From Sulfuricurvum sp. (GTDB taxonomy: Bacteria > Campylobacterota > Campylobacteria > Campylobacterales > Sulfurimonadaceae): a stretch of DNA of 64,000 nucleotides. Of this stretch, positions 2,408 through 63,722 are shown piece after piece (position 1 is the stretch's first letter; each line of letters begins with the position of its first letter). Under the pieces are notes generated by a model, which ran no database searches, was not told where the DNA came from, and was given only the letters and a program-made list of their open reading frames with translations. The DNA is taken from NCBI GenBank assembly GCA_028710885.1, contig JAQTTG010000003.1:310001-374000 (forward strand). Reading direction: 5' to 3'. A program made the translations under genes and the position numbers.

Positions 2408-3562
2408 TTAGATACGACCTAAGCCACGCGCTTCTAAAAAAAGATCTTCGGTATCAATAAGATGGCCTTCGCTTAATATGGCGGAGCGTTCTACAACGGA
2501 AATTAATTCGCGGATGTTTCCTGGCCAGTTGTAATGCTGTAAAGCATTGTACGCATCGGGGGTAAATGATTTGGATTCAAATCCGTATTGAAGACAGCTT
2601 TGTGTCAATACCGCATCAGCTATAGAAAGTATCTCTTCTCTTCGCTCTCGTAATGGAGGGATAATAAGAGGGATGGTATTTAAACGGTAATAAAGGTCTT
2701 CACGAAATTTTCCTGCACTGATTTGTTGATCTAGATTGGCATTGGTCGCTGTGATGATTCGAACATCTATTTTTGTATTCTTGGAAGCCCCTAATCGTCG
2801 GATTTCCCGTTCTTGTAGTACGCGAAGAAGTTTTGCTTGGAGAGGATAGGGCATTTCAGCTATTTCATCCAGAAACAGTGTTCCACCTTCAGCTAATTCA
2901 AATTGTCCCATTTTCGCTTCAGTGGCATCAGTAAAAGCACCTTTTTCAAATCCGAAAAGTTCACTTTCAATTAAATTATCAGGAATTGCAGCCATATTAA
3001 TAGCGATAAAAGGTTTTGAGGCACGAGGAGAGGATTCGTGGATATGGCGGGCAAAAAGCTCTTTACCAACACCACTTTCACCCAGAAGCATAATGCTTGC
3101 ATCCGTAGCAGCGGCTTTAGAAATACGGGTAAGCAATTTTTCTAATGCAGGGGAGTTACCTAAAAAAGTTTTGTTTGGCTGTTTTGCGGAGATCAATGGT
3201 TTAGGTGCTTTTTTAGCTACTATAGCACTTCGTTCAATGGCAGCTATTAGCGTTTCGATTTCGAAAGGTTTGAGGAGAAAATCTTTTACGCCGAGTTGAA
3301 TTGATTCGATTGCTCGAGTAAGTGTGGCGTTGCCTGTGATGATGATCACTTCAAATTTTCCACCCAATGTTTTTACAAATTCTATTCCATCCATTCCAGG
3401 CATATTGATATCACTAATAATAAGTTGGAATGTATTATCCAGTTTTTTGAGGGCATCGCGAGCATTTTTAAAGGTATGTACTTCATATGCATCGTACTCA
3501 GCCATAGCGATTTCCAGTGATTTGCGCATATTGATGTCATCTTCAACAATTGCAATTTTCAT
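2408..3562 (-). CDS. flgR: Sigma-54 activator of flagellar genes, FlgR-like
   Basis: NtrC-family response regulator that activates sigma-54 (class 2) flagellar genes with the kinase FlgS. Residues 1-115 form a receiver domain (acidic pocket E7-D8-D9, phospho-acceptor D51 in LIISDINMPGMDG). Residues from about 130 to 360 form an AAA+ domain with Walker A GESGVGKE, a GAFTDA loop and LFLDEIAEMP. The protein stops at 384 residues without the usual Fis-type helix-turn-helix. Helicobacter pylori FlgR is also about 380 residues and lacks that domain, so this is family-typical rather than a truncation. The sigma-54 contact loop reads GAFTDA instead of the usual GAFTGA. The flgQ, flgP and gyrA genes upstream follow the C. 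jejuni order. Confidence 0.88.
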   Translation of the reverse strand: MKIAIVEDDINMRKSLEIAMAEYDAYEVHTFKNARDALKKLDNTFQLIISDINMPGMDGIEFVKTLGGKFEVIIITGNATLTRAIESIQLGVKDFLLKPFEIETLIAAIERSAIVAKKAPKPLISAKQPNKTFLGNSPALEKLLTRISKAAATDASIMLLGESGVGKELFARHIHESSPRASKPFIAINMAAIPDNLIESELFGFEKGAFTDATEAKMGQFELAEGGTLFLDEIAEMPYPLQAKLLRVLQEREIRRLGASKNTKIDVRIITATNANLDQQISAGKFREDLYYRLNTIPLIIPPLRERREEILSIADAVLTQSCLQYGFESKSFTPDAYNALQHYNWPGNIRELISVVERSAILSEGHLIDTEDLFLEARGLGRI

Positions 3563-40645: not shown

Positions 40646-42335
40646 TAATCGAAAAATCGTTATCGATCCTGTTACCCGAATCGAAGGGCATTTACGGATT
40701 GAAATCGAAATCGATGCGAACAATATGATTCGTGAAGCTTGGGTTTCAGGACAACTTTTTCGTGGGATCGAGACGATATTAAAAGGGCGTGATCCCAGAG
40801 ATGCCGGACTAATTGCACAGCGAATTTGCGGCGTATGTACAAATGTCCATTACCGTGCTTCCATCAGTTCGGTCGAGGATGCATATGGAATTACTATTCC
40901 AAAAAATGCTGAAATTATTCGTAATCTTGTGACACTCTCTCTATTTGTTCAGGATCATATCGTCCATTATTATCACCTTCATTCGCTCGATTTCGTCGAT
41001 ATTACATCGGCTTTGAGTGCCGATTGTGCAACAGCGGAAAAAGAGGCAGAAAAGTTCAGTGCCAACCCTTACCACAATTCGATTCCCCATTTGGAATACA
41101 TCAAAGAAAAACTGAGCAGTTATGTTAAAGCCGGACGTCTAGGACTGTTTGCCAACGGATACTGGGGACATAAAAGCTATCAACTGAGCCCTGAGCAAAA
41201 TCTCATCCATATGAGTCATTACCTTGAAGCGCTCAATATCCAGCGGGAGATTTCAAAAGCGGTTGCAATCTTTGCGGGGAAAACACCTCATCCCCAAAAC
41301 CTTGTTGTAGGTGGAGTGACGAGTGTCGCCGAGATACTGAATCCTCAACGACTGAACGATTTTCTTTTTATTATCAAAGAGGTACGCGATTTCATTGAAC
41401 GCGCTTATATCCCCGATATGTTGATACTTGTAAATGGCTATCGAGATTCGATTAAATCGGGTGAGGGGAGAGCGAGCGGCAATTTTATGGGATGCGGCGG
41501 ATACCGTTTCGGAAAGCAGTCGGTTTTGTTTGAATCCGGTGTGATACATGGGCATAATTTTGAGAATATTGCTCCATTCGATGCAACAAAGATTACCGAA
41601 GAAGCGTCACGGTCATGGTATGAAAAGGATGCCCCACTTTCTCCGTATGAGGGGGAAACAATCCCATTTTATACCGATCTTAATGAGGATGGAACTCTTA
41701 AGAGTGAGGGAAAATATAGCTGGATTAAAGCTCCTAGATACGATGGCGCAGTGATGGAAGTGGGGCCGTTGGCGCGGATGATTATCGGCTATAGTAAACA
41801 TTCACATGTGATTCGTCCTTATATGGAGCGTTTCATGAAAAGTGCACAGATGGAACTCATTGATTTTTCCACGACGATCGGAAGAAATGCAGCGCGTGCG
41901 GTAGAAGCACAAATATGTTGTGATTACCTTTTTGATATGATGAGCGATTTGATCGAAAATGTGAAATATTTAGATGAGACGACGTGGACAAAATATATTT
42001 TCGAAGAGATGGCTTCTTCAGCCAAAGGTGCGGGGATTTTTGAAGTGCCTCGTGGAGTTCTTGGCCATTTTGTCCGAATTGATAATGCAAAAATTGCCAA
42101 CTATCAGGCAGTGGTTCCGACTACATGGAACGCATCGCCCAAAGATGCACATAACATCAGAGGTGCTTATGAAGAATCCCTAATCGGTATTACTCTCATC
42201 GATCCGGAAAAGCCTTTGGAGGTTTTGCGCGTGATACATTCATTTGACCCGTGTCTGGCATGTGCGGTTCATGTGATCGATGCAACAGGAAAAGAGTTGT
42301 CACAGTATAAAATAATGAATGAGTGTTCGCTATAA
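40638..42335 (+). CDS. [NiFe] hydrogenase large subunit, partner of the fused small subunit
   Basis: 565 residues. Active-site cysteines are in L1 RICGVCTNVH (near 60) and L2 DPCLACAVH (near 540). After the final His a 20-residue tail (VIDATGKELSQYKIMNECSL) remains to be removed by a maturation protease. Similar in plan and sequence to HydB at 52356, indicating a duplicated HydAB-type enzyme. The overlap with the upstream gene means coupled translation. Confidence 0.93.
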   Translation: MNNNRKIVIDPVTRIEGHLRIEIEIDANNMIREAWVSGQLFRGIETILKGRDPRDAGLIAQRICGVCTNVHYRASISSVEDAYGITIPKNAEIIRNLVTLSLFVQDHIVHYYHLHSLDFVDITSALSADCATAEKEAEKFSANPYHNSIPHLEYIKEKLSSYVKAGRLGLFANGYWGHKSYQLSPEQNLIHMSHYLEALNIQREISKAVAIFAGKTPHPQNLVVGGVTSVAEILNPQRLNDFLFIIKEVRDFIERAYIPDMLILVNGYRDSIKSGEGRASGNFMGCGGYRFGKQSVLFESGVIHGHNFENIAPFDATKITEEASRSWYEKDAPLSPYEGETIPFYTDLNEDGTLKSEGKYSWIKAPRYDGAVMEVGPLARMIIGYSKHSHVIRPYMERFMKSAQMELIDFSTTIGRNAARAVEAQICCDYLFDMMSDLIENVKYLDETTWTKYIFEEMASSAKGAGIFEVPRGVLGHFVRIDNAKIANYQAVVPTTWNASPKDAHNIRGAYEESLIGITLIDPEKPLEVLRVIHSFDPCLACAVHVIDATGKELSQYKIMNECSL

Positions 42336-42367: not shown

Positions 42368-42961
42368 TTGGCACGACCTACAAAAGAAGAACGTAAAATT
42401 TCAATTATGACGAAAGCATTGGAACTCTTTTCCAAAGAAGGGTTTTATCAAACTACAATGCCCTCTATCGCTGAAAGAATCGGGATGAGCGTCGGAAATC
42501 TTTATAACTATTTTACCTCAAAAGAGATGCTTGCTAAAGATCTCATCCTCTATATCGCCAATATCTTAGGTGAAGAGATACGTTGTATTAATGAGAGTGA
42601 TCGAAATACCAAAGAAAAAATAGATGCGATAGTTCATATGTATTTTAGCATTGCTAAAGAGCGCCCTGAAACGATTGAGTATTTTTTACGGGTTTATCTC
42701 TCCAACCGCGAAGTGTTTCAAAACTGCTGTGAGGGGATGATCTGTGTTTCGGCTTTTGTGACCGAACTGATGATATTTTTCGAAGAGGGTGTTCGGTGCG
42801 GCGAGCTTAGAGATCAGGATTTTTTCAGTGCATTCGGTCTTTTTATGGGATATTTGGGGGGAATGGTCTTTTTAAACGGCGAAAAAATTCTCCCTAAATC
42901 ACTGGAAGAGTACGAAGCTACTATTGCTGAAAATATCTATTATGCCCTCAAATCCAACTAA
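42368..42961 (+). CDS. TetR-family transcriptional regulator
   Basis: 197 residues. Helix-turn-helix at about 27-50 (TTMPSIAERIGMSVGNLYNYFTSKEML) and an all-helical ligand/dimer domain with several cysteines (FQNCCEGMICVS, VRCGEL). Starts at a TTG at 42368 after ATAGGGA. It lies between two hydrogenase gene pairs and overlaps the next small-subunit gene by 20 bases, so it probably regulates one or both, but the ligand is unknown. Confidence 0.85.
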   Translation: MARPTKEERKISIMTKALELFSKEGFYQTTMPSIAERIGMSVGNLYNYFTSKEMLAKDLILYIANILGEEIRCINESDRNTKEKIDAIVHMYFSIAKERPETIEYFLRVYLSNREVFQNCCEGMICVSAFVTELMIFFEEGVRCGELRDQDFFSAFGLFMGYLGGMVFLNGEKILPKSLEEYEATIAENIYYALKSN

Positions 42962-43838
42962 ACTCAAAATTATTTGGCTTCAGGGGATCACCTGTAACGG
43001 TAACACCCACTCTTTTTTGAATGATCCATTATTGGGGTCACTATTAGAAAAAATTGACTTTATACATCATCCCCTTTTGCCCTGTACCAAAACACTCAAA
43101 GAACTTGTCAAAAAACTCCCAAAATCGGATATCCTGATTTTTGAGGGAGCGTATAAAGCTGATTTTGAGCGTGCTGGTATGGCCATGGAAATTTTATTGC
43201 CCGCACTGGCACATAAGACAAAACATATCGTTTCCATAGGAAGTTGTGCAAGTTTTGGAGGAATATTTAAAGAATATGATCCTGAAAATATCAGCGGCAT
43301 TGTATTTGACAAGGAAAAATCTAGCGGTCCACTCCAAGCGATGCGAGAGAAAGTGATAACACTTAGCGGTTGTCCTGTTCATCCAAAATGGTTCTCTTTT
43401 GTGATGGATATGATTGTGATGGGTAAAACAATCGCAGTTGATGAATATCGTCGTCCAAAAGAGTTGTATGCGTATCTTATCCATAACGGGTGCCTGCGAA
43501 ATGAGTATTTTGAATGGAAAGTGGACAGTGATGTATTTGGAACAAAAGAGGGGTGCTTGTTTTACGCACAAGGGTGCCAAGGCCCTTTTACTCATGGTAG
43601 CTGTAATAAAATTCTTTGGAATGAGGTGAGTTCAAAAACGCGTGCCGGAACCCCGTGTGTCGGGTGCACGGAGCCTGCTTTCCCTAGACGAGAGTTATTT
43701 ACGACGAAAACTTATATGTCGATCCCTGCTGAAATGCCGCTTGGTATACCGAAACGGAGTTATCTTGCATTAGCGGGTGCAGCAAAATCGTTTCATATTA
43801 AACGGCTTGAAGGGAAATTGATCGATGATAACGCATGA
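42942..43838 (+). CDS. [NiFe] hydrogenase small subunit, cytoplasmic (sensor-like or group 2 type)
   Basis: 298 residues. N-terminal proximal-cluster motif WLQGITCNGNTHSFL, GSCASFGG, LSGCPVHP, LIHNGCLRNEYFEWK, GCLFYAQGCQGP and CVGCTEPAFP carry the expected cluster ligands. No twin-arginine signal and no C-terminal anchor, so it stays in the cytoplasm. WLQG-C-x-GNT with no Tat signal resembles uptake/sensory hydrogenases of group 2 rather than HydA. Start at the ATG at 42942 inside the TetR gene; the ATG at 42924 is an alternative. The end overlaps the large subunit by 14 bases. Confidence 0.82.
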   Translation: MPSNPTKLKIIWLQGITCNGNTHSFLNDPLLGSLLEKIDFIHHPLLPCTKTLKELVKKLPKSDILIFEGAYKADFERAGMAMEILLPALAHKTKHIVSIGSCASFGGIFKEYDPENISGIVFDKEKSSGPLQAMREKVITLSGCPVHPKWFSFVMDMIVMGKTIAVDEYRRPKELYAYLIHNGCLRNEYFEWKVDSDVFGTKEGCLFYAQGCQGPFTHGSCNKILWNEVSSKTRAGTPCVGCTEPAFPRRELFTTKTYMSIPAEMPLGIPKRSYLALAGAAKSFHIKRLEGKLIDDNA

Positions 43839-45120
43839 ACTGATCGAGCGAATAGAGGGAGAAGCTGTACTCGATTTTAAAACCGACAAAAGTGGACGTG
43901 TTCAGGAAGCCGCTATTCGATTTTTACATTTTCGGGGAATGGAAGCGATTTTGGAAGGACGAAATGCTTTGGATGCATTGGTAATTGCTCCTAGGGTATG
44001 TGGTATCTGTGGACATTCTCATCTGATTGCGGCAGCACGTATGCTCGAAAATGTCTATTCTAATGCAGGTGTCAAGATTACACTTACATCTAAGGCGCAT
44101 GCGATAAGGGAAATTACGAGATCATGTGAATTGCTTCAGAATCATATTAAGTGGCTTTATCTCGTTATGCTTCATGAGAGTGGAAAACTTCTTTTAGCAG
44201 ACTACCCCGTTGCACTTAAAGCACTTTATGTCTCATCTCAGATCAATCAACTATGTGCTTTGTTCAGCGGGCAATGGCCTCACAGCTCTTATGCACTTCC
44301 TGGCGGAGTAACATGTGATCCTACCCATATTGAAGTGATGCAGGCTCTGAAAATCCTCTCTGAAGTAGAGCAATTTGTTGAGAGGGAAGTATTGGGTTGT
44401 AAAATGGAAGCATTTCAAGCGCGAATGGAAAATGGCTCATTGCTTTCGCTTGAGGGAGATTTTGGAACTTTATTGCAGTATTTTGAACGATTAAATTTAC
44501 TTCAAACGGGAAAAAGTCATGGTCAGTTCTTAGTGTTAGGTGAGGAGAAATTATCGATTAAGAACGGTGAAAGAAGTATTGCTGATGTCAGTTTCGTCCA
44601 TGAAGATGACTCAAAAATTTTTCAAAACGGAGGGGATACTTATGCTAAAAATGCCCTTTATCGGGGAGAATTTTATGAGACAGGGCCATTGGCGCGTGCT
44701 ATTGTAGCTGAGCGTTCGGGAGTGATGAAACTTTATGTACAATCTGGAGATACAGCATTGACTCGTCTCTCAGCACGAGTTGATGAAGTGGTTGTCATCA
44801 TAGGTAAACTACGTCAATTGCTTAGTTCTCTTGATCTTTCCCAACCTTCCTTTGTCCCTCTTACACATATTGAGAATATCAGCGCAGAGGGGGTTGGGAT
44901 TGTTGAAGCGCCGCGAGGGACACTTATTCATCGGGCTAAACTTGAAAAAGGGAAAATTACTTCCTACTCGATCATTACTCCTACCCAATGGAATTTGGGT
45001 AATGGAATGAAAGATTCTTTGGGAATTGCACAAAAAGCGATGATTGGTGCAGATTCTATTGCTAAAGCATCATTGATTTTTCGAACGTTTGATGTCTGTT
45101 CGGTGTGTACGACGCATTAG
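43825..45120 (+). CDS. [NiFe] hydrogenase large subunit without C-terminal extension
   Basis: 431 residues, shorter than the other two (565 and 591). L1 is PRVCGICGHSH, L2 is DVCSVCTTH and the protein ends exactly at that His. Other large subunits in the window carry 20 further residues that are cleaved after nickel insertion. Lack of this tail is known from H2-sensing (HupV/HoxC) enzymes, so this pair could be an H2 sensor, or a group 2 enzyme matured without a protease. The TetR gene just upstream suits a regulatory role. A sensor kinase of the HoxJ type is not adjacent, so function remains open. Confidence 0.85.
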   Translation: MITHELIERIEGEAVLDFKTDKSGRVQEAAIRFLHFRGMEAILEGRNALDALVIAPRVCGICGHSHLIAAARMLENVYSNAGVKITLTSKAHAIREITRSCELLQNHIKWLYLVMLHESGKLLLADYPVALKALYVSSQINQLCALFSGQWPHSSYALPGGVTCDPTHIEVMQALKILSEVEQFVEREVLGCKMEAFQARMENGSLLSLEGDFGTLLQYFERLNLLQTGKSHGQFLVLGEEKLSIKNGERSIADVSFVHEDDSKIFQNGGDTYAKNALYRGEFYETGPLARAIVAERSGVMKLYVQSGDTALTRLSARVDEVVVIIGKLRQLLSSLDLSQPSFVPLTHIENISAEGVGIVEAPRGTLIHRAKLEKGKITSYSIITPTQWNLGNGMKDSLGIAQKAMIGADSIAKASLIFRTFDVCSVCTTH

Positions 45121-45134
45121 ATATGGGCGAGGTA

Positions 45135-45932
45135 TTATTTCACAGCTTCAGCTTTTATCCACATCTTGATCTCTTTTTTGCCTTGGTAGCTGATGTAATA
45201 CCACTCTTGTCCTGCATCATCAGTTTTTGTATCGAGTAACGTTACTTTATCACCTGCAATTAGGTACATTTTAGATTGGGATGATTCGGAAGGTTCTTTG
45301 TAGAGGGGGGATTTATTGATTAATGGTTTTAGATTATCACTTTCTTCAAAATTACTTATACACTGTAGTTTTTCATAATTTCCTTCATTAAATGCTTTTC
45401 TAGATATTTTACAAGATAATGAAGTCACAGACTTCCCATCCATACTATGAACTGGTACATTATCAAAACTCAAATCATTTTTGATTTTTTCACTACCAAA
45501 ATTATATTTATCTGTCGTAAAAAGAAAATCAGGTTTAAAATCTCTTAGGTTCAGATTATTAAAATCACCAATATACAAAGTTGGTAACAACTTATTTGCT
45601 TTTATTGAAACAATATGATTAAAACAATAAACTCGTTGGATATAGAAATTATTCTGTTTTTTAAATACAGGTATCACACACTCTTCTTGTGATGAGTTCA
45701 AAAGTGTTGCTTTATTGATACTAAACTCAGAATTGTCAATGGACATATTTGAAAAATAATAAAGTGAAGTAACATTATCATTTTTTTTAATGAAATTATT
45801 GATCAACTGCTTGGTCTGAGTATTTATAATTCCTCTCTCTGTGATATCTAATTCTATTGTCTTGGCAATAGCCGTGTTCACCATGAGTAAAATACTCATA
45901 TAGCCTATTAATTTTTTGCTTTTGTTAAACAT
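45135..45932 (-). CDS. Exported protein with SH3-like C-terminus, probable immunity protein
   Basis: 265 residues. Signal peptide at 1-23 (KKLIGYMSILLMVNTAIA), then an unrecognised middle with one likely disulfide region, and a C-terminal bacterial SH3 module (IAGDKVTLLDTKTDDAGQEWYYISYQGKKEIKMWIKAEAV). It overlaps the end of the Rhs gene by 25 bases. The Rhs tip is a predicted peptidoglycan hydrolase, so an exported neighbour is just what an immunity protein would have to be. Function is inferred from position and export. Confidence 0.6.
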   Translation of the reverse strand: MFNKSKKLIGYMSILLMVNTAIAKTIELDITERGIINTQTKQLINNFIKKNDNVTSLYYFSNMSIDNSEFSINKATLLNSSQEECVIPVFKKQNNFYIQRVYCFNHIVSIKANKLLPTLYIGDFNNLNLRDFKPDFLFTTDKYNFGSEKIKNDLSFDNVPVHSMDGKSVTSLSCKISRKAFNEGNYEKLQCISNFEESDNLKPLINKSPLYKEPSESSQSKMYLIAGDKVTLLDTKTDDAGQEWYYISYQGKKEIKMWIKAEAVK

Positions 45933-48900
45933 TCTTCAAACTCCTCTGCATATTTTTTGATCACATCCGCTCTATCTAAACCATTAATTATTTGTCTTGC
46001 ACTCCGATAGTCTTTTTTTGAATTATCAATAAAATCTTCTAATTTATAGTGAGTGAACATACCATTCTCCATTCCTATAACCATAATATTAAATGAGTTA
46101 TTCCATTCAACTGCTTTTTCAGGATTATTGACAAAATTAACACCTAATTTATCAGTGAATTTTTGATAATTACTTTTTCCAGTAATTTGTACGAATCCTC
46201 TACCCTTATATTTAACACCGTCTCCTTGAACAGTATTACCAAGTGAGATAGCAATAGCTCTTCTGTTACCATTTTTACCTAAAACTGGATCATACATTTC
46301 TTCAGCATAATGATCTCCTCCTAATTCAGCAATCGGATTAAAAAGTATTTGATGTATATAATCATATGTTTCTAACTTAACTGTTGCGAGCATATATGCA
46401 ATATAGTATAAATTACATATTCCTTTTTGTGCATAGTAACTTTTTAAATCAACAAGAAGATGTTCAAGTCCTAAAATAGATTTTTGCTTTAGCGTTTGTT
46501 TAATGTATGAATGTGTATCTTGATCCCAAATGGTGTGAATTTTTTTATATTCATCGATAAATTTATCAACATTAAAACATTGGTTTTTCACCTTCAATTC
46601 CTCTCCCTTCAAATACTCTTGCGGAGTATTCTTCGCAGATGGACAGCTAACATTTAGCCACAAATGATCGAACTTTTCTGATTCTGTAGCAGTGTGTTTA
46701 AACTTCTCTTGCCACAGTTCCAAGCTAGGACTAGTATCCGTTGCATTTGCCTTTTTATCTTTTTTCGGTCGTAGTTCTACTTCGATAGCTGCGTAAGTTC
46801 CTTGTGAGGCAACACTTACTTCGGTTACTTCTACTCCGTCTTTTAACACTACGAGTTCTTTACCTGCTGCCATCAGCATCGGTGATTTCTCATAGATTTT
46901 AAAGGTGACGTTTTGACCCGCTGGGCATCCAGAGAGGGTTGCTAGCAAAGTTACCTTTTGTCCTATACTTGCTTCATTGATTTGTTTCGAATATTTCTCT
47001 TTTTTATAGAGTTTGAAGGTAATTGTTTCATTTATATTGTAATGTTCATGTGTTAACGCTTCTTTAATAGATGCTTCGGTTGGGTATCTTACTCCGTAAG
47101 GGTTGTCAAGTTGAATGTTATGAAGGATTCTATTTGCAATCTTGGTTTTATGCTGAGCGTTAGAGGTGTCATTGTTATTATGCTTAAACTTATATGTTCC
47201 AGTTCCGTCTAATACTTCACGTTCTGCTTGCTCTGCGAAATACGCATTAGTGATTTTACAAGTCAATGTAGGATTGAAGTTTCCTACACATGCTCCATTA
47301 TTTGGATTCGTTTGAGCTGTTATTGGTTTGACTTCTACTGTTTTTGGAGTATGTGATTGTGCGGTTGGTGTTTTAGCAGTCGAAACATTAGAATTTGGGA
47401 TTGATTGTTGCGGATTTGGCGAAAAGAAGTTTCGTATAGAATTATTAAAGTTATCAAAGGCTTGGGATAAATAGTTTTGTGCAGATGCTCCCTGCACACC
47501 ATTTTGCACTAATCCACTCGGATCGATAAAGTTCACCGGATCATTCCCTACATAGCGATAGAAGTTGGTGTCCCCTCCCATAAACCCTATCGGGTCTGGA
47601 GAGATAAATCGTCTCATGGTAGGGTCATAATAACGTGCTCGGTAGTAATACAGATCAGGGGTATCGTATTCTCTGCCTGTATATCTGTAAGGGTTATATG
47701 TCTCTATATCCTTAGTACTGTGAGTGATAGTACCATACGCATCATAATCATAGCTCTCTACTACATTTCCCTCTTTATCGGTGAGGGCTAGGATAGAGTT
47801 TTGATGATCACGGTGATAGTAGTAGGTATGGATGAGTGATTGCTCGTATGCATAGCGCTCATCCGCATCGAGTTGTTCATTTTCCCATGTACTGAGAGAG
47901 CTTTTATCGTAGAGGCTGATTGATAGTGGGGTATCAACTCCCTCATCATGCAGGAGAGTGGAGAGGAGTTCATCAGTGTCGTTATCGTAAATCGCAACGA
48001 TATTCGCTCCATCATACAGATAGCGGTGGTGGTAATCAATCGTTCCGCTTCGGTAGTGTTTACTCAGACGTCTTCCCAATGGATCGTAGATAAAGACAAT
48101 ACTTACTTGCAGTTCACGGTGGCGGGTGTCATATTGCATATAAGCGCCTAGGTATCCTTCGATAGTGTAGGTGTATTCGGTAATAGTAGAGGGGGATGTT
48201 TTTAGGATCAGTCTACCTAGAATATCGTACTTGTAGGTTTCATTACCTCGTTGCGTTAGGCGGTTGGTTATGGGATCGACGGTGCTATCATTGTCTGCTG
48301 GGTTTCCTACGAGATCATAGCTATAGTGACGATTACCCTCACCTATCAGTCTGCGCGTTTCATCATAGCGATAGATGATATCGTTACGGGAGACGATGAG
48401 AGAGCTTTTATCATAGTGGTAGAGGAGTGAACCGTTCGGGAGTGTACGTTCGCTCAGTCGTCCTAGCGGATCATAAGTGCTTTTTTCACTCAGGTGATTA
48501 GGATATCCTATCGTGTTTACTTTATCTCCTGAATAACTCAGGGCATATTTTTCTAATCCTCTGCGGATTTCAGTGATATTTCCGCGATCATTGCGAATGA
48601 GTCTATAATGCATCCCTTCGTATCCGATGAAGCGGCATGTTCCATCAGAGTTATACGCATGTGAAACACTCGTCTCTCCTAAACGCTCCAACAACACTCT
48701 CGCACCCGCATCATATACATATTCGACACTGTTTGTTCCATCATCGATACGGATAGGATTACCTAATGCGTCGTAAGTGTAATGGATGGTTTTATTTCCG
48801 ATTGTTTGAGAAATTTTACGTCCTCTTTTGTCATATTCGAATGTGTAAGATTGCGTATCTTCTCTCGTGATTGAAGCGAGAAGTCCATGCACATAAGTAT

Positions 48901-50863: not shown

Positions 50864-51124
50864 AATGAGCAACCTGTATGTTATTTAAAAAAACAATAAA
50901 TTGTTATAAAAAATTTACGAAACAATATCATAATAAACATTAAATATAATTTATTTTGTTTAAAATAATTTTTAAATGTATTGCTAAATAATTTATCTTT
51001 AGGTCCTATAAATACATAAGAAATAGAAAAATTCAAATAAATTTTATCTATTAAATATTCGTTTAAGTTATCCAGACGTACAATACTGAATGATTGTTCA
51101 TTTAAAGATATTGAGGAGAAGATC
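50864..51124. other. AT-rich intergenic region between rhs and hydA
   Basis: 261 bases without a supported gene, very AT-rich and carrying the divergent control regions of rhs and hydA. A possible hydA -10 box TACAAT lies at 51079-51084; no operator repeat is obvious. Confidence 0.5.
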
Positions 51125-52363
51125 ATGTCCGACAAAATAGAAGCGGTTAAGAAACTGTTTACTTCGAAAAGTTCGCGTGTTGAAACGAACAAGGGTGATG
51201 CATACTATCAAGAGTTATTCCAAAAGTGTGAAGCACGTCTCAATGAGATGCGCGCGATGGAACCTACCAACAGAGTTGACTTCTCCGAATTATTAGAAGA
51301 GAACGGAATTGATAGACGGGAATTTATGAAATGGGCAAGTGCAACAACTGCGATGTTGATGCTTCCTCCTATGTTCACACCGCTTGTTGCCGATGCCACA
51401 TTATTGATGAACCGTGCTCCTGTCATTTGGCTTGAACTGCAAGACTGTGCGGGTAACTCCGAAGCGCTTTTACGTGCGGATGGACCGAAAATCGATGAGA
51501 TCGTACTTGATATTATCTCTTTGGAATATCACGAAACATTGCAAGCAGCAGCGGGTTATCAAGCAGAGAAACAACTTGATGAAGCGATGGAACATTTCAA
51601 AGGAAAATATCTTTTGTTTGTAGAAGGTTCTGTTCCGATGGGGATGAACGGTCAATATGGAACAATCGGAGCTAAAGCGGAAACATTCCATGATCATCTT
51701 GTCCGTTGTTCTGAAAATGCTGCTGCTGTTGTTGCTGTCGGTGCATGTGCTACGTTTGGTGGTGTTCCTGCCGCTTCACCGAATCCTACCGGTGCGGTTG
51801 GAGTTATGGAAGTTGTCAAAAACAAACCAATTATCAATATTCCTGCTTGTCCGGCAAATCCTGCCAATATGGTTGGTGTAATACTTCATTATCTATTGAC
51901 AGGTCAAGTGCCTGAACTCGATTCACTTCTACGACCTAAGTTTGCATTTGGATATCGTATTCATGATAACTGTGAACGTCGTGCTCATTTTGATGCGGGT
52001 GAATACGTAGAAGAGTGGGGTGATAAAGGGGCTCAAAATAATTTCTGCCTTTATAAAATGGGATGTAAAGGTCCTATGACATTTAACAACTGTTCTATTG
52101 TCCGTTATAACGAAGCGATTAACTGGCCGATCGGGGTTGGTCGTGGTTGTATCGGATGTTCAGAACCCGATTTTTGGGATAAATATGCGTATGAGCGTCC
52201 GATGGCCGATGCGAAAATTAAAGCACCGACTGGCGGCGTTGAAAAAACCGTCGATGAGTTTGGTTTGGGTATGTTAACCGCAGTCGGAATCGGTATTGGA
52301 ATTCACGCGGCAGCAAGTGCCGTAGCAGGTAAACGAGAAAAATCAGGAGAGAGCCATGAGTAA
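51125..52363 (+). CDS. hydA: Membrane-bound [NiFe] uptake hydrogenase small subunit (group 1, Tat-exported)
   Basis: 412 residues. The twin-arginine signal DRREFMKW (R64-R65) and its hydrophobic core (ATTAMLMLPPMFTP) lie unusually far in, after a 63-residue N-terminal stretch. The mature part begins VIWLELQDCAGNSE and carries VGACATFGG, PACPANP, HDNCERRAHFD, KMGCKGP, CSIVRYN and CIGCSEPDFWD. C-terminal helix LGMLTAVGIGIGIHAAASAV anchors it to the membrane next to HydC. This is the Wolinella/Helicobacter HydA plan (periplasmic H2 oxidation). AGGAGAAG precedes the ATG; it overlaps hydB by 8 bases. Confidence 0.95.
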   Translation: MSDKIEAVKKLFTSKSSRVETNKGDAYYQELFQKCEARLNEMRAMEPTNRVDFSELLEENGIDRREFMKWASATTAMLMLPPMFTPLVADATLLMNRAPVIWLELQDCAGNSEALLRADGPKIDEIVLDIISLEYHETLQAAAGYQAEKQLDEAMEHFKGKYLLFVEGSVPMGMNGQYGTIGAKAETFHDHLVRCSENAAAVVAVGACATFGGVPAASPNPTGAVGVMEVVKNKPIINIPACPANPANMVGVILHYLLTGQVPELDSLLRPKFAFGYRIHDNCERRAHFDAGEYVEEWGDKGAQNNFCLYKMGCKGPMTFNNCSIVRYNEAINWPIGVGRGCIGCSEPDFWDKYAYERPMADAKIKAPTGGVEKTVDEFGLGMLTAVGIGIGIHAAASAVAGKREKSGESHE

Positions 52364-54131
52364 ACATATTGTAGTTGACCCTATTACCCGTATTGAAGGA
52401 CATTTGCGCATTGAAGCTGTTATTGATGATAACAATACGATTGTAGATGCTTATAGCGCTTCAACCATGTTTCGTGGGATTGAGACGATTTTACAAGGGC
52501 GCGACCCACGCGACTGCGGATTGTTGGCAATGCGTATTTGCGGTGTGTGTACCGGAACTCACTATCAACGCTCTATCGAAGCGGTGGAAGATGCGTTTAA
52601 AATTACGATTCCGAAAAATGCCCGTTTGGTACGGAATTTGATTCAGGGTGCATTGTATGTGCATGACCACGTGGTTCATTTTTACCATCTACATGCACTC
52701 GATTTCGTTGACGTTGTTTCGGCACTTTCAGCAGATCCGGCTAAGACAGCGGCAGAAGCACGTAAATGGGCATCTGTAGCGGGCGAATCTCCGTATATCG
52801 ACGGTGAAAGTGAATTTAAAGCGATCCAAGAGCGTGTTGCTAAATTTGTTAAACAAGGGCGTTTAGGTATTTTCGGTAACGGATACTGGGGTAATCCTCA
52901 CTATAAATTGACGCCTGAACAAAACCTTATCGGAGTTGCTCACTATTTGATCGCATTGGACGTTCAGCGCGATTTGGCAAAAATGCAGGCGATTTTCGGC
53001 GGTAAAAATCCGCATCCACAATCGATTGTTGTCGGCGGGGTTACGTGTGTTCAGGATATCCAAAATCCGGCACGTCTTGCACTCTTTAAATCATTGATGC
53101 TAGCGGGACGCAAGTTTGTTAAACAAGCATATCTTCCGGATGTCTATATGGCGGGAACCATGTATGCGGGTGAAGCAACCGACTCTAAAGCAACGTTTAG
53201 CGAGCTTATGGGTGGAAAAGGGGTCGGCGGAACCGGCGGCGGATTGCTCAACTATATGAGTTATGGTGATTTCCGTCTCGATGATACCGGTTTTTATAAA
53301 TCGGCTCTTTTGTTCCCAAGCGGGGTTGTAATGGGGGGAGATATCTCTAAAGTAATTCCGTTGGATCAAGAAAAAATTGCGGAAGATGTGACTCACTCAT
53401 GGTATAAAGGGGATAAACCTCTTCATCCGTATGATGGGCAAACGATTCCTGAATATACCGGTTTGGAGAAAGGTGCCGATGGCATTGCATATTTAAAAAC
53501 CAAAGAGAAATACAGCTGGATCAAATCACCGATCTATAACGATGCTCGTGTCGAAGTGGGACCGTTGGCACGTATGGTTATCGGTGTTGCATCAAAAGAT
53601 GCCCGTATTACTAAATACGTTACAGAATTCTTGGAACGCGGGAAACTTCCAGTTACGGTACTTTTTAGTACGGTTGGACGTACAGCAGCACGTGCTATCG
53701 AGACGTCGTTGATGTCCGATGTCATGATTGAATGGATTGATGAACTGGAAGCTAACGTTATGGCTGGGGATCTTAGAACATGGAGTGATTTCAATTTTGA
53801 TGAAGTCAGTATGAATACTAAAGGTCGCGGTATGGCGGAAGCTCCGCGCGGTGCGCTTGGTCATTGGGTGAGCATTGCGGATGGTAAAGTAATCAATTAT
53901 CAAGCCGTCGTTCCATCAACATGGAATGCGGCTCCTCGTGATCATAAAGGACGTTTGGGCGCATATGAGGCGAGTTTGATCGGAACCAAAGTGGCGAATC
54001 CTGAACAACCACTTGAAATTATCCGTACGATTCATAGTTTTGACCCTTGTATCGCTTGTGCGGTTCACGTTGTCGATACCAAAGGTAAAGAGCTTGCTGT
54101 TTACAAAGTAGATACCTCTTGCAGTATCTAA
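52356..54131 (+). CDS. hydB: Membrane-bound [NiFe] hydrogenase large subunit
   Basis: 591 residues holding the NiFe site: L1 RICGVCTGTHY and L2 DPCIACAVH, followed by a 20-residue tail (VVDTKGKELAVYKVDTSCSI) cut off after nickel insertion. Exported as a complex with HydA. Length and the GGKGVGGTGGGLLNYMSYGD loop are typical of group 1b. Electrons pass via HydA clusters to HydC. Confidence 0.96.
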   Translation: MSKHIVVDPITRIEGHLRIEAVIDDNNTIVDAYSASTMFRGIETILQGRDPRDCGLLAMRICGVCTGTHYQRSIEAVEDAFKITIPKNARLVRNLIQGALYVHDHVVHFYHLHALDFVDVVSALSADPAKTAAEARKWASVAGESPYIDGESEFKAIQERVAKFVKQGRLGIFGNGYWGNPHYKLTPEQNLIGVAHYLIALDVQRDLAKMQAIFGGKNPHPQSIVVGGVTCVQDIQNPARLALFKSLMLAGRKFVKQAYLPDVYMAGTMYAGEATDSKATFSELMGGKGVGGTGGGLLNYMSYGDFRLDDTGFYKSALLFPSGVVMGGDISKVIPLDQEKIAEDVTHSWYKGDKPLHPYDGQTIPEYTGLEKGADGIAYLKTKEKYSWIKSPIYNDARVEVGPLARMVIGVASKDARITKYVTEFLERGKLPVTVLFSTVGRTAARAIETSLMSDVMIEWIDELEANVMAGDLRTWSDFNFDEVSMNTKGRGMAEAPRGALGHWVSIADGKVINYQAVVPSTWNAAPRDHKGRLGAYEASLIGTKVANPEQPLEIIRTIHSFDPCIACAVHVVDTKGKELAVYKVDTSCSI

Positions 54132-54143
54132 TTTGATGTTACA

Positions 54144-54188
54144 CACTTTGCGAGCAAAGCCCGCAAAGTGGCAGGGACAAATGTCCCT
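54144..54188 (+). other. Two adjacent hairpins between hydB and hydC
   Basis: CACTTTGCG/CGCAAAGTG (54144-54170, 9-bp perfect stem, 9-base loop) followed by AGGGAC/GTCCCT (54173-54188, 4-base loop). Neither has a T-run. They probably stabilise or process the hydAB message and set the ratio to hydC. Confidence 0.55.
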
Positions 54189-54242
54189 ACAACCCCCTAA
54201 AGCTTCCCGTATCTTTTGGATGCGGGAGAAGGAGAAAATGTT

Positions 54243-54953
54243 ATGGGTTACAAACAAGTCAAGCGTATGACGCCGGCTATGCGCATCATCCATTGGGTGA
54301 ATGCGATTAGTATGATTGGTGCCATCGCAACAGGACTTTATATCGGGCATCCGTATTATCAGACTTTTATCGCTGATGGTGCGGTTGATAAATATGTTAT
54401 GGCGTGGAACCGCTATGGGCACTTTATTATTGCGATTATCTTCGATGTTACATCAGTGGCAATCGTGTATCTTTATTTTTTCAGTCGATTTGAAAAACCG
54501 TATAAAAAAGTTATTCCAAATGCGAAGAACCTTACGGAATTCAAAGATGTCGTTGTCAATTTGTTGACGTTAAATCGTAAAAATGAGTTTAATTCAACCC
54601 ATTCGGACAGTTTCAATACCGTCTATTTTACGGTTTTTCATTTACTCCTTTTATGGATGCTTGTGACCGGTTTACAAATGTATGTTTGGGGATTGGGTTC
54701 TGGGTTAAGTTCAATAGGATCATGGTGGCCATGGATATTGCATGTTGGAACAGACTGGAGCCTATATGTGACCGGTGGAAGTAAAATGGATGTACGGTTA
54801 TCACATCACTATACAATGTGGTTTATTATCTGCTGGATAGTGTTTCACATCTATTATCAAGTCTGGAGAACCATTTTCTGGAAAGAAGCGGATATCGCTA
54901 TCGTTATCGGTGGTTCGAAATTTGTCAAAGAAGAGAAAGCAAACCGTAAATAA
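54243..54953 (+). CDS. hydC: Hydrogenase cytochrome b subunit
   Basis: 236-residue di-heme cytochrome b that takes electrons from HydA and reduces the quinone pool. Four membrane helices, with likely heme-ligand histidines in MRIIHWVNAISM, WNRYGHFIIAIIFD, VYFTVFHLLLLWML and LSHHYTMWFIICWIVFHIYY. Start at the ATG at 54243, preceded by AGAAGGAGAAA; an ATG at 54216 would add nine residues. Third gene of hydABC. Confidence 0.93.
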   Translation: MGYKQVKRMTPAMRIIHWVNAISMIGAIATGLYIGHPYYQTFIADGAVDKYVMAWNRYGHFIIAIIFDVTSVAIVYLYFFSRFEKPYKKVIPNAKNLTEFKDVVVNLLTLNRKNEFNSTHSDSFNTVYFTVFHLLLLWMLVTGLQMYVWGLGSGLSSIGSWWPWILHVGTDWSLYVTGGSKMDVRLSHHYTMWFIICWIVFHIYYQVWRTIFWKEADIAIVIGGSKFVKEEKANRK

Positions 54954-58904: not shown

Positions 58905-61148
58905 GTGTTTAAACCAAATAATCATATCCGAATTACGATCAAAGGGATAGTGCAGGGGGTCGGATTTCGCCCATTTGTTTACCGAGAAGCACTTGCTTAT
59001 GGAGTAAAAGGGTTTGTGATTAATACCTCCGAGGGGGTTGTGATCGAAGCGCATGCACAGGAGTGTGAGCCATTTATTCAAGCTTTGCGGGAACATTTAC
59101 CGCCTCGTGCCCGCATCGATTCGATGGAGATCACACCGTGTCCCTTTGCCGAATACGAAAATTTTGAGATCCGTGAGAGTACTTTAGGGCACGGGGGTGT
59201 TGCTATCCCCCTCGACAGCGCACTGTGTCCTGCGTGTGAAGCGGAGATGGATGATCCCTCTAATCGCCGCTATGGATATCCGTTTATCAACTGCACCGAT
59301 TGTGGTCCCCGTTACACCATCATCCAAACCCCACCCTACGATCGTGTCCGCACCTCGATGAAACATTTTACGATGTGCTCTGAGTGTATGAGTGAATACA
59401 CCGATCCCACTTCACGCCGTTACCATGCTGAGCCGATTTCGTGTCCAAACTGTGGACCGAAATTAAGTTTTACCGATAACAAAGGGGAAGCAATCGAAGG
59501 CGATCCTGTCACTTTAGCGGTCGAGATGCTTAAAGCGGGGAAAATTATTGCTCTCAAAGGGTTAGGGGGATTTCACCTGATGTGCGATGCGACTTCCGAT
59601 ACCGCCGTCGAGGAGTTGCGGCTTCGCAAGCACCGCCGTGCCAAACCGCTTGCGGTGATGTTCAGCTCACTAGAACAGCTTGAAATGTATGTATCGATCA
59701 ATGAAGTGGAAAAAATGCATATTACGGGAGTGATCAAGCCTATCGTGATTGTTGATGCTGTACGTGGGACGAACCTCTCCTCTCTCATTGCGCCACGTAT
59801 TGATCGGCTTGGCGTGTTTCTCCCCTATACTCCTTTGCATCGACTGCTGTTTGAACACATCGACTTTCCTCTCGTCGCGACGAGTGCCAACATCAGCGAT
59901 GAGCCGATTATGATACGTGCATCTGAGATTGTTGAACGGCTTGGAAATGTGATCGATGGGATTGTGGATCATGACCGCACGATTATCAATGCCCTCGATG
60001 ATGCGGTGATTCAAATCGCCGAAGGTCGTGTTGTTATGCTCAGAATGGGAAGAGGTTATGCACCTCATACGTTTGCATTGAGCAATGAAAAACCGATTTT
60101 GGCTCTTGGAGCCCACCAAAAAAGTTCGATTGCTTTGGGGGTCAAAGATAATATGATCCTAAGCGGACATATCGGGGATTTAGGAAGTGTGGAAGCCGAT
60201 GGCTATTTTGAGCGGACGGTGCAAACGTTTAAACGTTTTTATGAGGCGGAACCGTCGCTTTTGGCGCATGATCTCCATCCGCAGTATGCTTCGAGTGTGT
60301 ATGCCGTGGCTCAAAAAAGAGAGCACTATGGAATCCAGCACCATTACGCCCATATTTTGGCGTGTATGGCTGAGTATGGATTGAGCGAAAAAGTGCTCGG
60401 ATTTGCGTTTGATGGTACGGGATATGGGGAGGATGGGAACCTGTGGGGCGGAGAGGTGATGATTGCCGATGTACACGGCTATGAACGCATCGGATATCTC
60501 AAGCCTATGGCTTTGCTCGGCGGAGACAAAGCGATCAAAGAGCCTCGACGGATCGCCTTATCACTACTGTTTGAATGTTTTAGCCTCGATGAGGTGATGG
60601 AATTGAAAATCCCGACCGTGGAAGCCTTTTTGCCGCACGAAATACGGACGCTCCATCATATGTGGAGTAAAAATATCAACGCCCCCCACAGTTCATCTAT
60701 GGGGCGGCTGTTTGATGCGGTTGCTTCATTGGGCGGATTTGTCCAAAGCCTCGATTACGAGGGGCAGGGTGGGATGATGATGGAGTCGTTTGTCGATGAT
60801 TCCATTGTCACGCCATTTGCTTTTGAGATCGAAAACGGCGTGATAGATGTGTCGCCGATGGTGAAAGAGATCATCACACTCGGTGCGGAGAATCAAACGA
60901 TCATTGCGAGCCGTTTTCTCTCGACCATCGAAGCGATTATGGAGCATTTTGCGAATATGAATTCCGAATTACCGATTGTTATCGGCGGCGGCGTGTTTCA
61001 AAACCGTGTTTTGATGAGCAGGCTTTATCGCCGTTTTGGAGAGGGACGGTTTTATGCCCAACAGCAAACACCGATCAACGATGGATCGATTGCACTGGGG
61101 CAGCTTTATTATGCACTACACAACACAAAGGAAACAAATGAACGCTAA
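58905..61148 (+). CDS. hypF: Carbamoyltransferase HypF
   Basis: 747 residues. Makes the carbamoyl group that becomes the CN ligands of the NiFe site. N-terminal acylphosphatase domain (IVQGVGFRPFVYREA), two zinc fingers (CPACEAEMDDPSNRRYGYPFINCTDCGPRY and CSECMSEY...CPNCGPKL), a YrdC-like domain (GGFHLMCDATSD...LRKHRRAKPLAVMF) and the carbamoyltransferase domain (HHYAHILACMAEYG, FDGTGYGEDGNLWGGEV). Start is a GTG at 58905 after CGGAGGAT. It overlaps the next protease gene by 11 bases. Confidence 0.97.
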   Translation: MFKPNNHIRITIKGIVQGVGFRPFVYREALAYGVKGFVINTSEGVVIEAHAQECEPFIQALREHLPPRARIDSMEITPCPFAEYENFEIRESTLGHGGVAIPLDSALCPACEAEMDDPSNRRYGYPFINCTDCGPRYTIIQTPPYDRVRTSMKHFTMCSECMSEYTDPTSRRYHAEPISCPNCGPKLSFTDNKGEAIEGDPVTLAVEMLKAGKIIALKGLGGFHLMCDATSDTAVEELRLRKHRRAKPLAVMFSSLEQLEMYVSINEVEKMHITGVIKPIVIVDAVRGTNLSSLIAPRIDRLGVFLPYTPLHRLLFEHIDFPLVATSANISDEPIMIRASEIVERLGNVIDGIVDHDRTIINALDDAVIQIAEGRVVMLRMGRGYAPHTFALSNEKPILALGAHQKSSIALGVKDNMILSGHIGDLGSVEADGYFERTVQTFKRFYEAEPSLLAHDLHPQYASSVYAVAQKREHYGIQHHYAHILACMAEYGLSEKVLGFAFDGTGYGEDGNLWGGEVMIADVHGYERIGYLKPMALLGGDKAIKEPRRIALSLLFECFSLDEVMELKIPTVEAFLPHEIRTLHHMWSKNINAPHSSSMGRLFDAVASLGGFVQSLDYEGQGGMMMESFVDDSIVTPFAFEIENGVIDVSPMVKEIITLGAENQTIIASRFLSTIEAIMEHFANMNSELPIVIGGGVFQNRVLMSRLYRRFGEGRFYAQQQTPINDGSIALGQLYYALHNTKETNER

Positions 61149-61695
61149 AGTAGCCCTAATCGGTTCGGGAAATGCATTTTTTATGGATGAGGGGATCGGT
61201 CTTTATGCCGGAAAATATTTTAAAGAAAATTATACCTTTGAGCCGCATCTTGATATTGTCGATGGGGGGACGCTTGGGTTTCGTTTGATGCCGCTGCTTC
61301 AAGAGTATGAGCATGTTATCATCGTCAATACCAGCTCCGATGATACGTTGGCGGTAGGGACGATAGTGGTGATGAGCGGTGATGAACTGATAGAGCATCA
61401 GGGGATTAAAAAGACCGCGAACGAAGTAGAGATTACCGAGATGCTCCAAATCTGTTCGATGGCGTCTCATTGTGCACAAACGACCATGATCAGTATCGTT
61501 CCCGAAGATATTATCAGTGTCTGTGTTGACATCACACCCTCTCTTCGTGCATACTGGGACGGTTATATCGAAGTGATAGTGGAGGAACTCGCCAAATGCG
61601 GTATCACCGCTACGCGAAAAAGCGATGTCATGCATTTGAATGAGATATTAGAGCAGTTTGCCAATCCGAGTATTGAGCACGGCAAAGGGTTTTAG
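61138..61695 (+). CDS. Hydrogenase maturation protease (first)
   Basis: 185 residues of the HyaD/HupD peptidase family that trims the C-terminal tail of a hydrogenase large subunit after nickel insertion. N-terminal GSGNAFFMDEGIGLYAGKYF holds the first metal-binding acidic residue, and the IVDGGTLGFRLMPLLQEYEHVIIVN segment the next. Cysteine-histidine segment CSMASHCAQTTM near the middle. Start at the ATG at 61138, ten bases inside hypF with AAAGGA upstream. It probably serves one of the two large subunits with tails (40638 or 52356). Confidence 0.87.
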   Translation: MNAKVALIGSGNAFFMDEGIGLYAGKYFKENYTFEPHLDIVDGGTLGFRLMPLLQEYEHVIIVNTSSDDTLAVGTIVVMSGDELIEHQGIKKTANEVEITEMLQICSMASHCAQTTMISIVPEDIISVCVDITPSLRAYWDGYIEVIVEELAKCGITATRKSDVMHLNEILEQFANPSIEHGKGF

Positions 61696-61698
61696 AGT

Positions 61699-62235
61699 AT
61701 GTCAATGGTTGTTTTGGGTGTCGGAAATGTACTCGAAGAGGATGATGGTGTTGGGATATATGCCTGTGCTTATCTAAACGCCAACTATACCTTTAGCCCT
61801 AAGATCGAGATCATCAACGGCGGAGTCGAGGGGATTAACCTTCTCAATCTCTTTTTGGAGAATGATCATATTATTATTCTCGATACGATTAATCTCGACG
61901 ATGAGGCGGGGAGTATTTACAATATCCCCTCATTCGAACTCAGCGGTTACGGGCTTAACAGCGGCGGTGCGCACGAAGTAGGGGTGATGCAGTGTCTGGA
62001 TATGATTGAGCTGATGGGTCATCCGCTCCCCGAATCGAATGTCATCGGTATCATCCCTAAAAGCATTACGTTTCACATGGGGTTGAGCGATGAGCTGAGT
62101 GAACACTTTGATAGCTATATAAATACAGTTATTAACTATCTCAAAACTTGTGGTGTCGATGCGGTTAAAAAAGAGACTTCAGTGAGCCTTCTGTCGATTA
62201 TCGAAGAGTTTAAATATCCGAGCCATGTGGCTTAA
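61699..62235 (+). CDS. hydD: Hydrogenase maturation protease (second)
   Basis: 178 residues of the same family: GVGNVLEEDDGVGIYACAYL, IINGGVEGINLLNLFLENDHIIILDTI, and the histidine segment GGAHEVGVMQCLDMIEL. Three bases after the preceding protease. In Wolinella HydD processes HydB. I assign the symbol to this copy on family likeness only; the two proteases could serve the two large subunits the other way round. The end overlaps the convergent gene by 26 bases. Confidence 0.8.
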   Translation: MSMVVLGVGNVLEEDDGVGIYACAYLNANYTFSPKIEIINGGVEGINLLNLFLENDHIIILDTINLDDEAGSIYNIPSFELSGYGLNSGGAHEVGVMQCLDMIELMGHPLPESNVIGIIPKSITFHMGLSDELSEHFDSYINTVINYLKTCGVDAVKKETSVSLLSIIEEFKYPSHVA

Positions 62236-62902: not shown

Positions 62903-63083
62903 AATAGATATTGTACCTAATTGAATAAGCTCATAACTGGATAATAAAAAATTATTGTTTATTTGCTAAAAAAGGGAATATTGAGTCCTGAAAATATATA
63001 AGAATAGGAGCGTTTTATATTGCTTTTACCCTAATGTTCTATAATAACTAACTGAACAGTTATTCATATGTAGTGAGGGTGTT

Positions 63084-63722
63084 ATGGAAACAGGATTAAT
63101 GATCATTTTTTGGTACGGCATCTTACACGCTTTCGGTCCGGATCATTTGACGGCCATTACCGATTTCTCGATCGGTAAAGAGACGAAAAAAACATTCTGG
63201 ATCGTAGGAGCTTTTGCAGTGGGGCACGGCATTATGCTGTTTCTTTTTGCAAAAATTCTGCAACACTATACTCTCCCTGAAACCTTTTTAGAGTATGGAG
63301 ATGTTATTGCATCGAGTGTCATATTAGCGATCGGAATCTATTTGCTGTACATGGTCTATGCGAATAAAATCCATTTGAAAACCCATACGCATGAACACAA
63401 AAAACATGTCCATATATGGTTCGGGAATGAACACCAGCATGAATCATCTACAACGACATCGGCGTTTGGTGTAGGGGTGTTGATGGGGATCGGCGGGGTA
63501 CGAGGGATGCTTGTTACCCTTGGAGTACTTCATGGTCAAACCGTCGATTTTACGATGATTTTAGCGTTTATCGCGGGTGTTATGGTGGTATTCTTTAGTT
63601 TCGGTTTGGTTATTTCGTGGATCAATAGAGATATTTTAACCAATCTACAAAATGTGCGCCGAGTTTTTGCTACAGTTGGAGCTATTTCAGTTCTTGTGGG
63701 CGGAAATATGCTTTTGGCATAA
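63084..63722 (+). CDS. NicO-family nickel permease
   Basis: 212 residues with six hydrophobic segments. N-terminal HAFGPDHLTAI is the H-x4-D-H metal motif, then a His-rich cytoplasmic loop (about 98-125, HLKTHTHEHKKHVH...HQHESS) and GIGGVRGMLVTLG. It would supply nickel to the hydrogenases whose maturation genes surround it. AGTGAGGG precedes the ATG at 63084. hypB follows in the same direction. Confidence 0.82.
   Translation: METGLMIIFWYGILHAFGPDHLTAITDFSIGKETKKTFWIVGAFAVGHGIMLFLFAKILQHYTLPETFLEYGDVIASSVILAIGIYLLYMVYANKIHLKTHTHEHKKHVHIWFGNEHQHESSTTTSAFGVGVLMGIGGVRGMLVTLGVLHGQTVDFTMILAFIAGVMVVFFSFGLVISWINRDILTNLQNVRRVFATVGAISVLVGGNMLLA

Follow-up and report, generated by a model that had tools for sequence, protein, structure and literature searches.

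A tail-less cytosolic [NiFe] hydrogenase and a co-encoded TetR-family regulator as a candidate H2-sensing module of Campylobacterota

Comparative analysis of a hydrogenase region of Sulfuricurvum sp. suggests that a cytosolic [NiFe] hydrogenase composed of a small subunit (sS) and a large subunit (sL) is probably a regulatory, H2-sensing enzyme, the output of which would be a TetR-family repressor encoded together with it. The window analyzed here is the whole stretch of 64,000 nt (assembly GCA_028710885.1, contig JAQTTG010000003.1, positions 310,001-374,000, forward strand), and the positions given below are those of the window. Comparison at the sequence level established that the three genes belong together, that sL has no C-terminal tail, and that a palindrome ahead of hydA is found almost only in genomes possessing the TetR gene, even where hydA is distant from it; the H2 sensing by sS-sL and the chemistry at a C-x4-C motif of TetR are what we infer. 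The idea of an H2 sensor had been raised in an initial annotation of the region. It gained strong comparative support from the coupling to TetR, the palindrome at hydABC, the absent extension and the absent Tat signal, whereas the HoxJ-like partner and the second target, a fused FAD-hydrogenase operon, that had been considered along with it did not hold.

Conservation of the three-gene module

The TetR gene (42368..42961, +; 197 aa, TTG start), assigned by a domain match and an AF2 model, overlaps the start of the sS gene (42942..43838, +), which encodes a [NiFe] hydrogenase small subunit of 298 aa with ligands for three Fe-S clusters and a proximal C-x-G-N motif. The lack of a Tat signal on sS and the presence of a TetR gene upstream, both pointed out in the initial annotation, were confirmed from the sequence. 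The sL gene (43825..45120, +), assigned by its ORF, a domain match (PF00374) and orthologues, encodes a group-2-like [NiFe] hydrogenase large subunit of 431 aa.

Among 397 Campylobacterota genomes, sL was found in 113 and TetR in 115, with both in 112, sL only in one and TetR only in three (Fisher p 1.6e-94). In 109/113, TetR was located upstream of sL in the same orientation and no more than 1.35 kb away; in the remaining four, it was located at 1.65 kb (two genomes), was separated from sL by a split over contigs (one) or was affected by contig run-off (one). When the count was restricted to distinct loci for which 1.5 kb or more of upstream sequence was available, TetR preceded sL in 97 of 98, the exception being L173, and the contig of the sole genome with sL only (G140) ended inside sS. 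Furthermore, TetR accompanied sS-sL, and not hydA, where sS-sL and hydA were apart, and the trio was also plasmid-borne in Sulfurovum mangrovi and Sulfurimonas paralvinellae, where the plasmid records name its parts as a TetR/AcrR regulator, a hydrogenase and a nickel-dependent hydrogenase large subunit. Taken together, sL, the Tat-less sS and TetR are, as judged by their co-occurrence and gene order, one conserved module across Campylobacterota.

Some genomes have TetR without the hydrogenase pair. It is placed directly before hydAB, with an exact palindrome, in G535; it is followed by an antisense gene and then hydA, again with an exact palindrome, in G205; and it is placed directly before hydA in G081 of the same family as the window. 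The three cases show that the loss of sS-sL need not entail the loss of TetR and its presumed site. In G415, the TetR match was partial and contained a stop. Separately, module-type TetR genes with no hydrogenase nearby were observed at two loci, L386 and L387 (G025 and G036), and at the latter a one-mismatch palindrome, located about 143 nt behind TetR, precedes sulfate-assimilation-like genes (named by eye).

The three proteins differ in conservation. Identity to the window's sequences within the genus was 83-91% for TetR, 73-85% for sS and 63-77% for sL, and in a six-genome subclade it was 66-69%, 61-62% and 44-47%, respectively. Thus, TetR drifts least and sL most, as would be expected for a regulator paired with a hydrogenase that does not have to work at high rates.

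Active site and predicted structures

The Ni ligands of sL, C59, C62, C425 and C428 in two CxxC motifs, were invariant in 106 sequences, together with E11 and R364. All catalytic residues are kept, so that turnover is possible. The AF2 model of sL (pLDDT 90.4) matched Huc of Mycobacterium smegmatis, a group 2a enzyme, as the top PDB entry (7utd, TM 0.89 by query length), and profiles likewise placed Huc closest for both sS and sL, making it the closest solved structure for both subunits. Huc also has the C-x-G-N motif in common with sS, but its relatives have a C-terminal extension and a protease gene, and sL is shorter by about 80 residues.

The usual motif at the proximal cluster of [NiFe] hydrogenases is C-x-x-C. 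In sS, 10 of the 11 cluster ligands are kept, as counted from ligand positions of group 1 structures, and the second proximal Cys is replaced by Asn in 100/101 sequences and by Asp in one. C-x-G-N is present in all three small subunits of the window (42942-43838, 38219-40645 and 51125-52363), as it is in Huc.

The product of the TetR gene has a TetR_N domain and the TetR fold. Its AF2 model (pLDDT 87.5) matched members of the TetR family, including Bacillus FadR, with TM 0.80-0.84. Although the fold is like that of FadR, the module TetR is encoded beside a hydrogenase with no acyl-CoA context and has an invariant C-x4-C: C121 and C126 (codons at 42728..42745, +) were present in 97/97 sequences, where the other cysteines vary, and also in 20/20 distant loci. 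In the model, the two residues fall within one of the least confidently predicted segments, which is flanked by helices 100-112 and 128-143.

A palindrome at the hydABC promoter

Enumeration over the regions upstream of hydA indicated TGAAT-N4-ATTCA, which was exact in 52/86 regions, whereas in shuffled sets no palindrome of the same size exceeded 6. At loci in which hydA is linked to the module, the palindrome was present within one mismatch in 87/89, compared with 49/1780 shuffled sequences; L170 and L173 had none at hydA. In many loci, it directly follows a -10-like hexamer, 14-26 nt before the hydA start codon. In the window, the candidate operator TGAATGATTGTTCA (51087..51100, +) is located 2 nt after TACAAT (-10-like, 51079-51084) and 24 nt before the start of hydA1, the first gene of the hydA1-hydB1-hydC operon (51125..54953, +), which was assigned by domains and synteny, encodes a Tat-exported membrane hydrogenase and is the predicted target. 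Another conserved element, TTTAAGTTAT (51062-51071), is present across genera a few nt before the -10-like box of hydA1.

The palindrome tracked TetR, being present in 9/9 genomes that have the module but in which hydA is unlinked from it. Among the 13 TetR-less genomes, a weak site at -159 was found near hydA in one and none in 12, a contrast that a missed TetR would blur in four of them (G063, G116, G141 and G147), which are less than 90% complete. Overall, the palindrome was found at hydA in 101/105 cases with TetR and 1/13 without (Fisher p 2.7e-12, only a guide because related genomes are not independent). With respect to genomes having TetR but no sL, a site was found in G156, G205 and G111, a weak one in G081 and none at hydA in G134, the TetR matches of G156 (5e-53) and G111 (3e-52) being weaker ones. 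Second copies of hydA differed in this respect, the one in G055 having the site and the one in G060 lacking it. It is therefore highly likely, on this comparative evidence, that the palindrome is the operator of the module TetR at the hydABC promoter.

A second candidate operator, TGAACAGTTATTCA (63053..63066, +; palindrome match), is located 17 nt 5' of the start of a NicO/UreH-like nickel transporter gene (63084..63722, +; named by eye), the second predicted target. The palindrome was present in 12 distinct upstream sequences of the transporter (11 from the genus and one from elsewhere), one of which is from G040, a genome that is 57% complete and yielded no TetR match; in two TetR-less genomes, the transporter promoter had no palindrome. 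Upstream of TetR itself, a site within one mismatch was found in 25/93 regions, compared with about 2.6% of shuffles, but several of those in the home genus apparently extend into the final codons of hydB2, the gene ahead of TetR, and autoregulation of TetR is therefore given little weight.

The initial annotation had also listed the fused FAD-hydrogenase operon for H2-dependent expression. In this operon, a fusion protein (38219-40645) in which a NirB-like FAD oxidoreductase and a BFD domain precede the small subunit is followed by a large subunit of its own, HydB2 (40638-42335). Among 14 promoters of the fused operon, none had the palindrome within one mismatch, and the operon was rejected as a target of TetR, leaving hydABC and the nickel transporter as the predicted targets. 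Members of the genus can have the fused operon whether or not they have the TetR module.

Beyond the window, the own genome contains another perfect copy of the palindrome seen at hydA1, at G000:C29:125276-125289 (L265, about 3277-3290), between nikR and a TonB-receptor gene (names by eye). G445 and G091, which we take to be Sulfurospirillum multivorans and Sulfurimonas denitrificans, respectively, have the module and an exact palindrome.

H2 sensing or H2 uptake

If sS-sL is the sensor, its action could be as follows. In the absence of H2, a TetR dimer would occupy the site immediately behind the -10 box, blocking hydABC and the nickel transporter gene. When H2 is available, it would be split at the Ni-Fe site of sL, and the electrons would pass through the Fe-S relay of sS. 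The electron flow would alter TetR, either directly, perhaps at Cys121/Cys126, or through a contact, and the altered TetR would leave the DNA, so that the respiratory hydrogenase is made and nickel is imported. A kinase would not be needed and, without a C-terminal tail, sL would mature independently of both proteases of the genome. A more specific version, which we regard as possible but tentative, is direct redox switching, in which the sS relay would reduce a disulfide or a bound metal or Fe-S centre at C121-x4-C126 and thereby lift the repression of hydABC and of nickel uptake, as well as that of the sensor operon itself in some genomes.

We consider sL to be very probably the cytosolic HupSL/group II/group 2d enzyme of Campylobacterota, of the Aquifex Hase III kind, because it is the only large subunit of the genome outside group 1; the link to 2d, with Aquifex Hase III and Hydrogenobacter Hup2, comes via published papers. 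In the literature, the cytosolic group II enzyme of free-living Campylobacterota has long been argued over as a sensor, a source of electrons for CO2 fixation or an enzyme of H2 release, the debate including Campbell 2009 (PMC2628731), and HupSL/group II/2d has so far been read mainly as an uptake enzyme of unclear role, with TetR regarded as repressing hupSL itself. PMC7952632 names sensing or energy conversion at low H2, and a regulatory role of 2d was considered in PMC10052474. The S. multivorans enzyme resembles the module in that hupSL adjoins hydAB, and a TetR-like gene directly upstream of hupSL has been described as its possible repressor (Kruse 2017, PMC5357620).

A catalytic role of sS-sL is rather unlikely, although not negligible: as a cytosolic uptake hydrogenase of HydDB-type group 2d, it would reduce ferredoxin for the reductive TCA cycle, and TetR would merely repress it together with hydABC. 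Such a role in carbon fixation is already in print as a hypothesis for 2D in Campylobacterota (Waite 2017, PMC5401914), and it is consistent with the retention of the Ni ligands, the active-site Glu and Arg, and all cluster ligands but one. However, TetR stays with sS-sL when the pair is separated from hydA, the palindrome is found at hydA but ahead of TetR in only the 25/93 loci mentioned above, and sL is the fastest-drifting protein of the trio, with its last His changed to Q or K in 18/106. Moreover, the group II enzyme of S. denitrificans was transcribed but its soluble uptake activity was not seen, its role being called speculative (Han and Perner 2015, PMC4584964), and Aquifex Hase III was hardly detectable (PMC10052474).

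The main evidence against H2-dependent control is, at least for that species and those conditions, the hydB result for S. multivorans. Kruse 2017 (PMC5357620) reports by qPCR that hydB was constitutive, with an H2 effect of only about twofold (p 0.224), and that the hupL transcript was mostly undetected, and it suggests a missing H2 sensor as the cause of the constitutive expression. Also speaking against the sensor reading are the genomes that have this TetR without sS-sL or with no hydrogenase near it, the lack of the palindrome in L170, L173 and G134, and the kept catalytic residues.

Another explanation, which we consider unlikely, is that the palindrome belongs to NikR or Fur and that TetR is a bystander controlling its own operon. 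Two classes of sites are indeed nickel-related, namely, those at the nickel transporter and in the nikR/TonB-receptor gap of the own genome. On the other hand, the site tracks TetR (101/105 compared with 1/13), including the 9/9 cases in trans, and the two TetR-less genomes have the nickel transporter without the site. In addition, TetR repressors, among them Bacillus FadR, a fold neighbour of the module TetR, typically have palindromic sites with TGAATGA half-sites.

If H2 sensing with a TetR output is correct, it would represent a second, independent bacterial way to sense H2, in which a one-component repressor takes the place of the kinase cascade. The phylum concerned is frequently encountered in aquifers and at vents rich in H2. 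The redox-switch version, if true, would make the disputed group II (2d) hydrogenase of Campylobacterota a regulator and not a carbon-fixation enzyme. With the module, the palindrome and the target genes at hand, the question of its role should be simply testable. An open-access literature search returned no description of a TetR output of a hydrogenase sensor, of the palindrome or of the phylum-wide link.

Relation to regulatory hydrogenases and the end of the large subunit

The known regulatory hydrogenases, HoxBC of Cupriavidus necator and HupUV (group 2b), are likewise Tat-less heterodimers with a large subunit ending at CxxCxxH, as read for HoxC from pHG1; the lack of a C-terminal extension in HoxC is also stated in PMC10073562. 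They differ from the module in signalling through the kinase HoxJ and the response regulator HoxA, sL having no such kinase adjacent to it, and HoxB has CGGC at the proximal cluster, where sS has CxGN. In a tree with 15 references, the 21 sL sequences formed one clade (100/100) outside 2a, 2b, 2c and group 1 and did not group with HoxC/HupV. Therefore, sL, being tail-less like HoxC/HupV but of a different clade, would work like a regulatory hydrogenase without being a 2b member. Apart from these, three loci (L094, L095 and L109) were observed to encode a HoxBC-like pair with a C-terminal extension that groups with the 2c reference.

Accordingly, a sensor of the 2b type, the signal of which would pass via a HoxJ/HupT kinase to an NtrC-type regulator, is very improbable, although the tail-less end and the missing Tat signal would agree with it: in addition to the separate clade, a search of the own genome with HoxJ, the partner that the initial annotation had proposed to look for, returned 18 hits to kinase cores only (the best aligned to 164-436 of 447), and there was no kinase gene within the module neighbourhoods examined, including 20 distant loci. 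A kinase of the HoxJ/HupT type was thus rejected as the partner of sS-sL.

The ORF of sL terminates with RTFDVCSVCTTH (C-terminus DVCSVCTTH; 45091..45120, +, from the sequence and orthologues), and a TAG stop follows directly after the CxxCxxH motif with no cleavable extension, exactly as initially annotated. The other two large subunits, HydB2 and HydB1 (52356-54131), were also found to run 20 residues past the equivalent histidine. The maturation proteases had been counted as two, one for each large subunit to be cleaved. This count was right, since two HycI-type proteases were found genome-wide, both inside the window (HyaD/HycI type, 61120..62235, +), for three [NiFe] large subunits.

In the genus, sL was found over at least 408 residues in 26/41 genomes, the window's own included; in 25/25 for which the end can be read, the protein terminates at the same position, and the 26th is interrupted by a contig edge. 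The stop codon is TAA, TAG or TGA, and the DNA 3' of it differs among relatives. An sL match was obtained in 102/228 genomes of the family. Across Campylobacterota, 106/106 distinct sequences end at the same position (108 fetched, two at contig edges), as do those in 20/20 loci of other families, and the best 80 of 315 matches in a contig scan all bore Campylobacterota names. Homologues with a C-terminal extension, which would have indicated a local nonsense mutation, were therefore not found among these sets. The claim that sL ends at the last active-site histidine stands for the position, which is fixed, but not for the residue itself, since among the 106 sequences 88 have H there, 17 have Q and one has K. 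A local nonsense mutation or pseudogene is excluded for practical purposes, as all readable relatives end alike with three different stop codons and unrelated downstream DNA.

Between sL and hydA1, the window contains, on the minus strand (45135-50872), a gene for a PAAR/Rhs-repeat protein, the end of which is chitinase/lysozyme-like, together with a small partner gene (named by eye), and this gap is much shorter in most relatives. Partial second copies of sL were observed between sL and hydA1 in L044 (10708-10947, residues 309-388) and L058 (15325-15417, residues 401-431).
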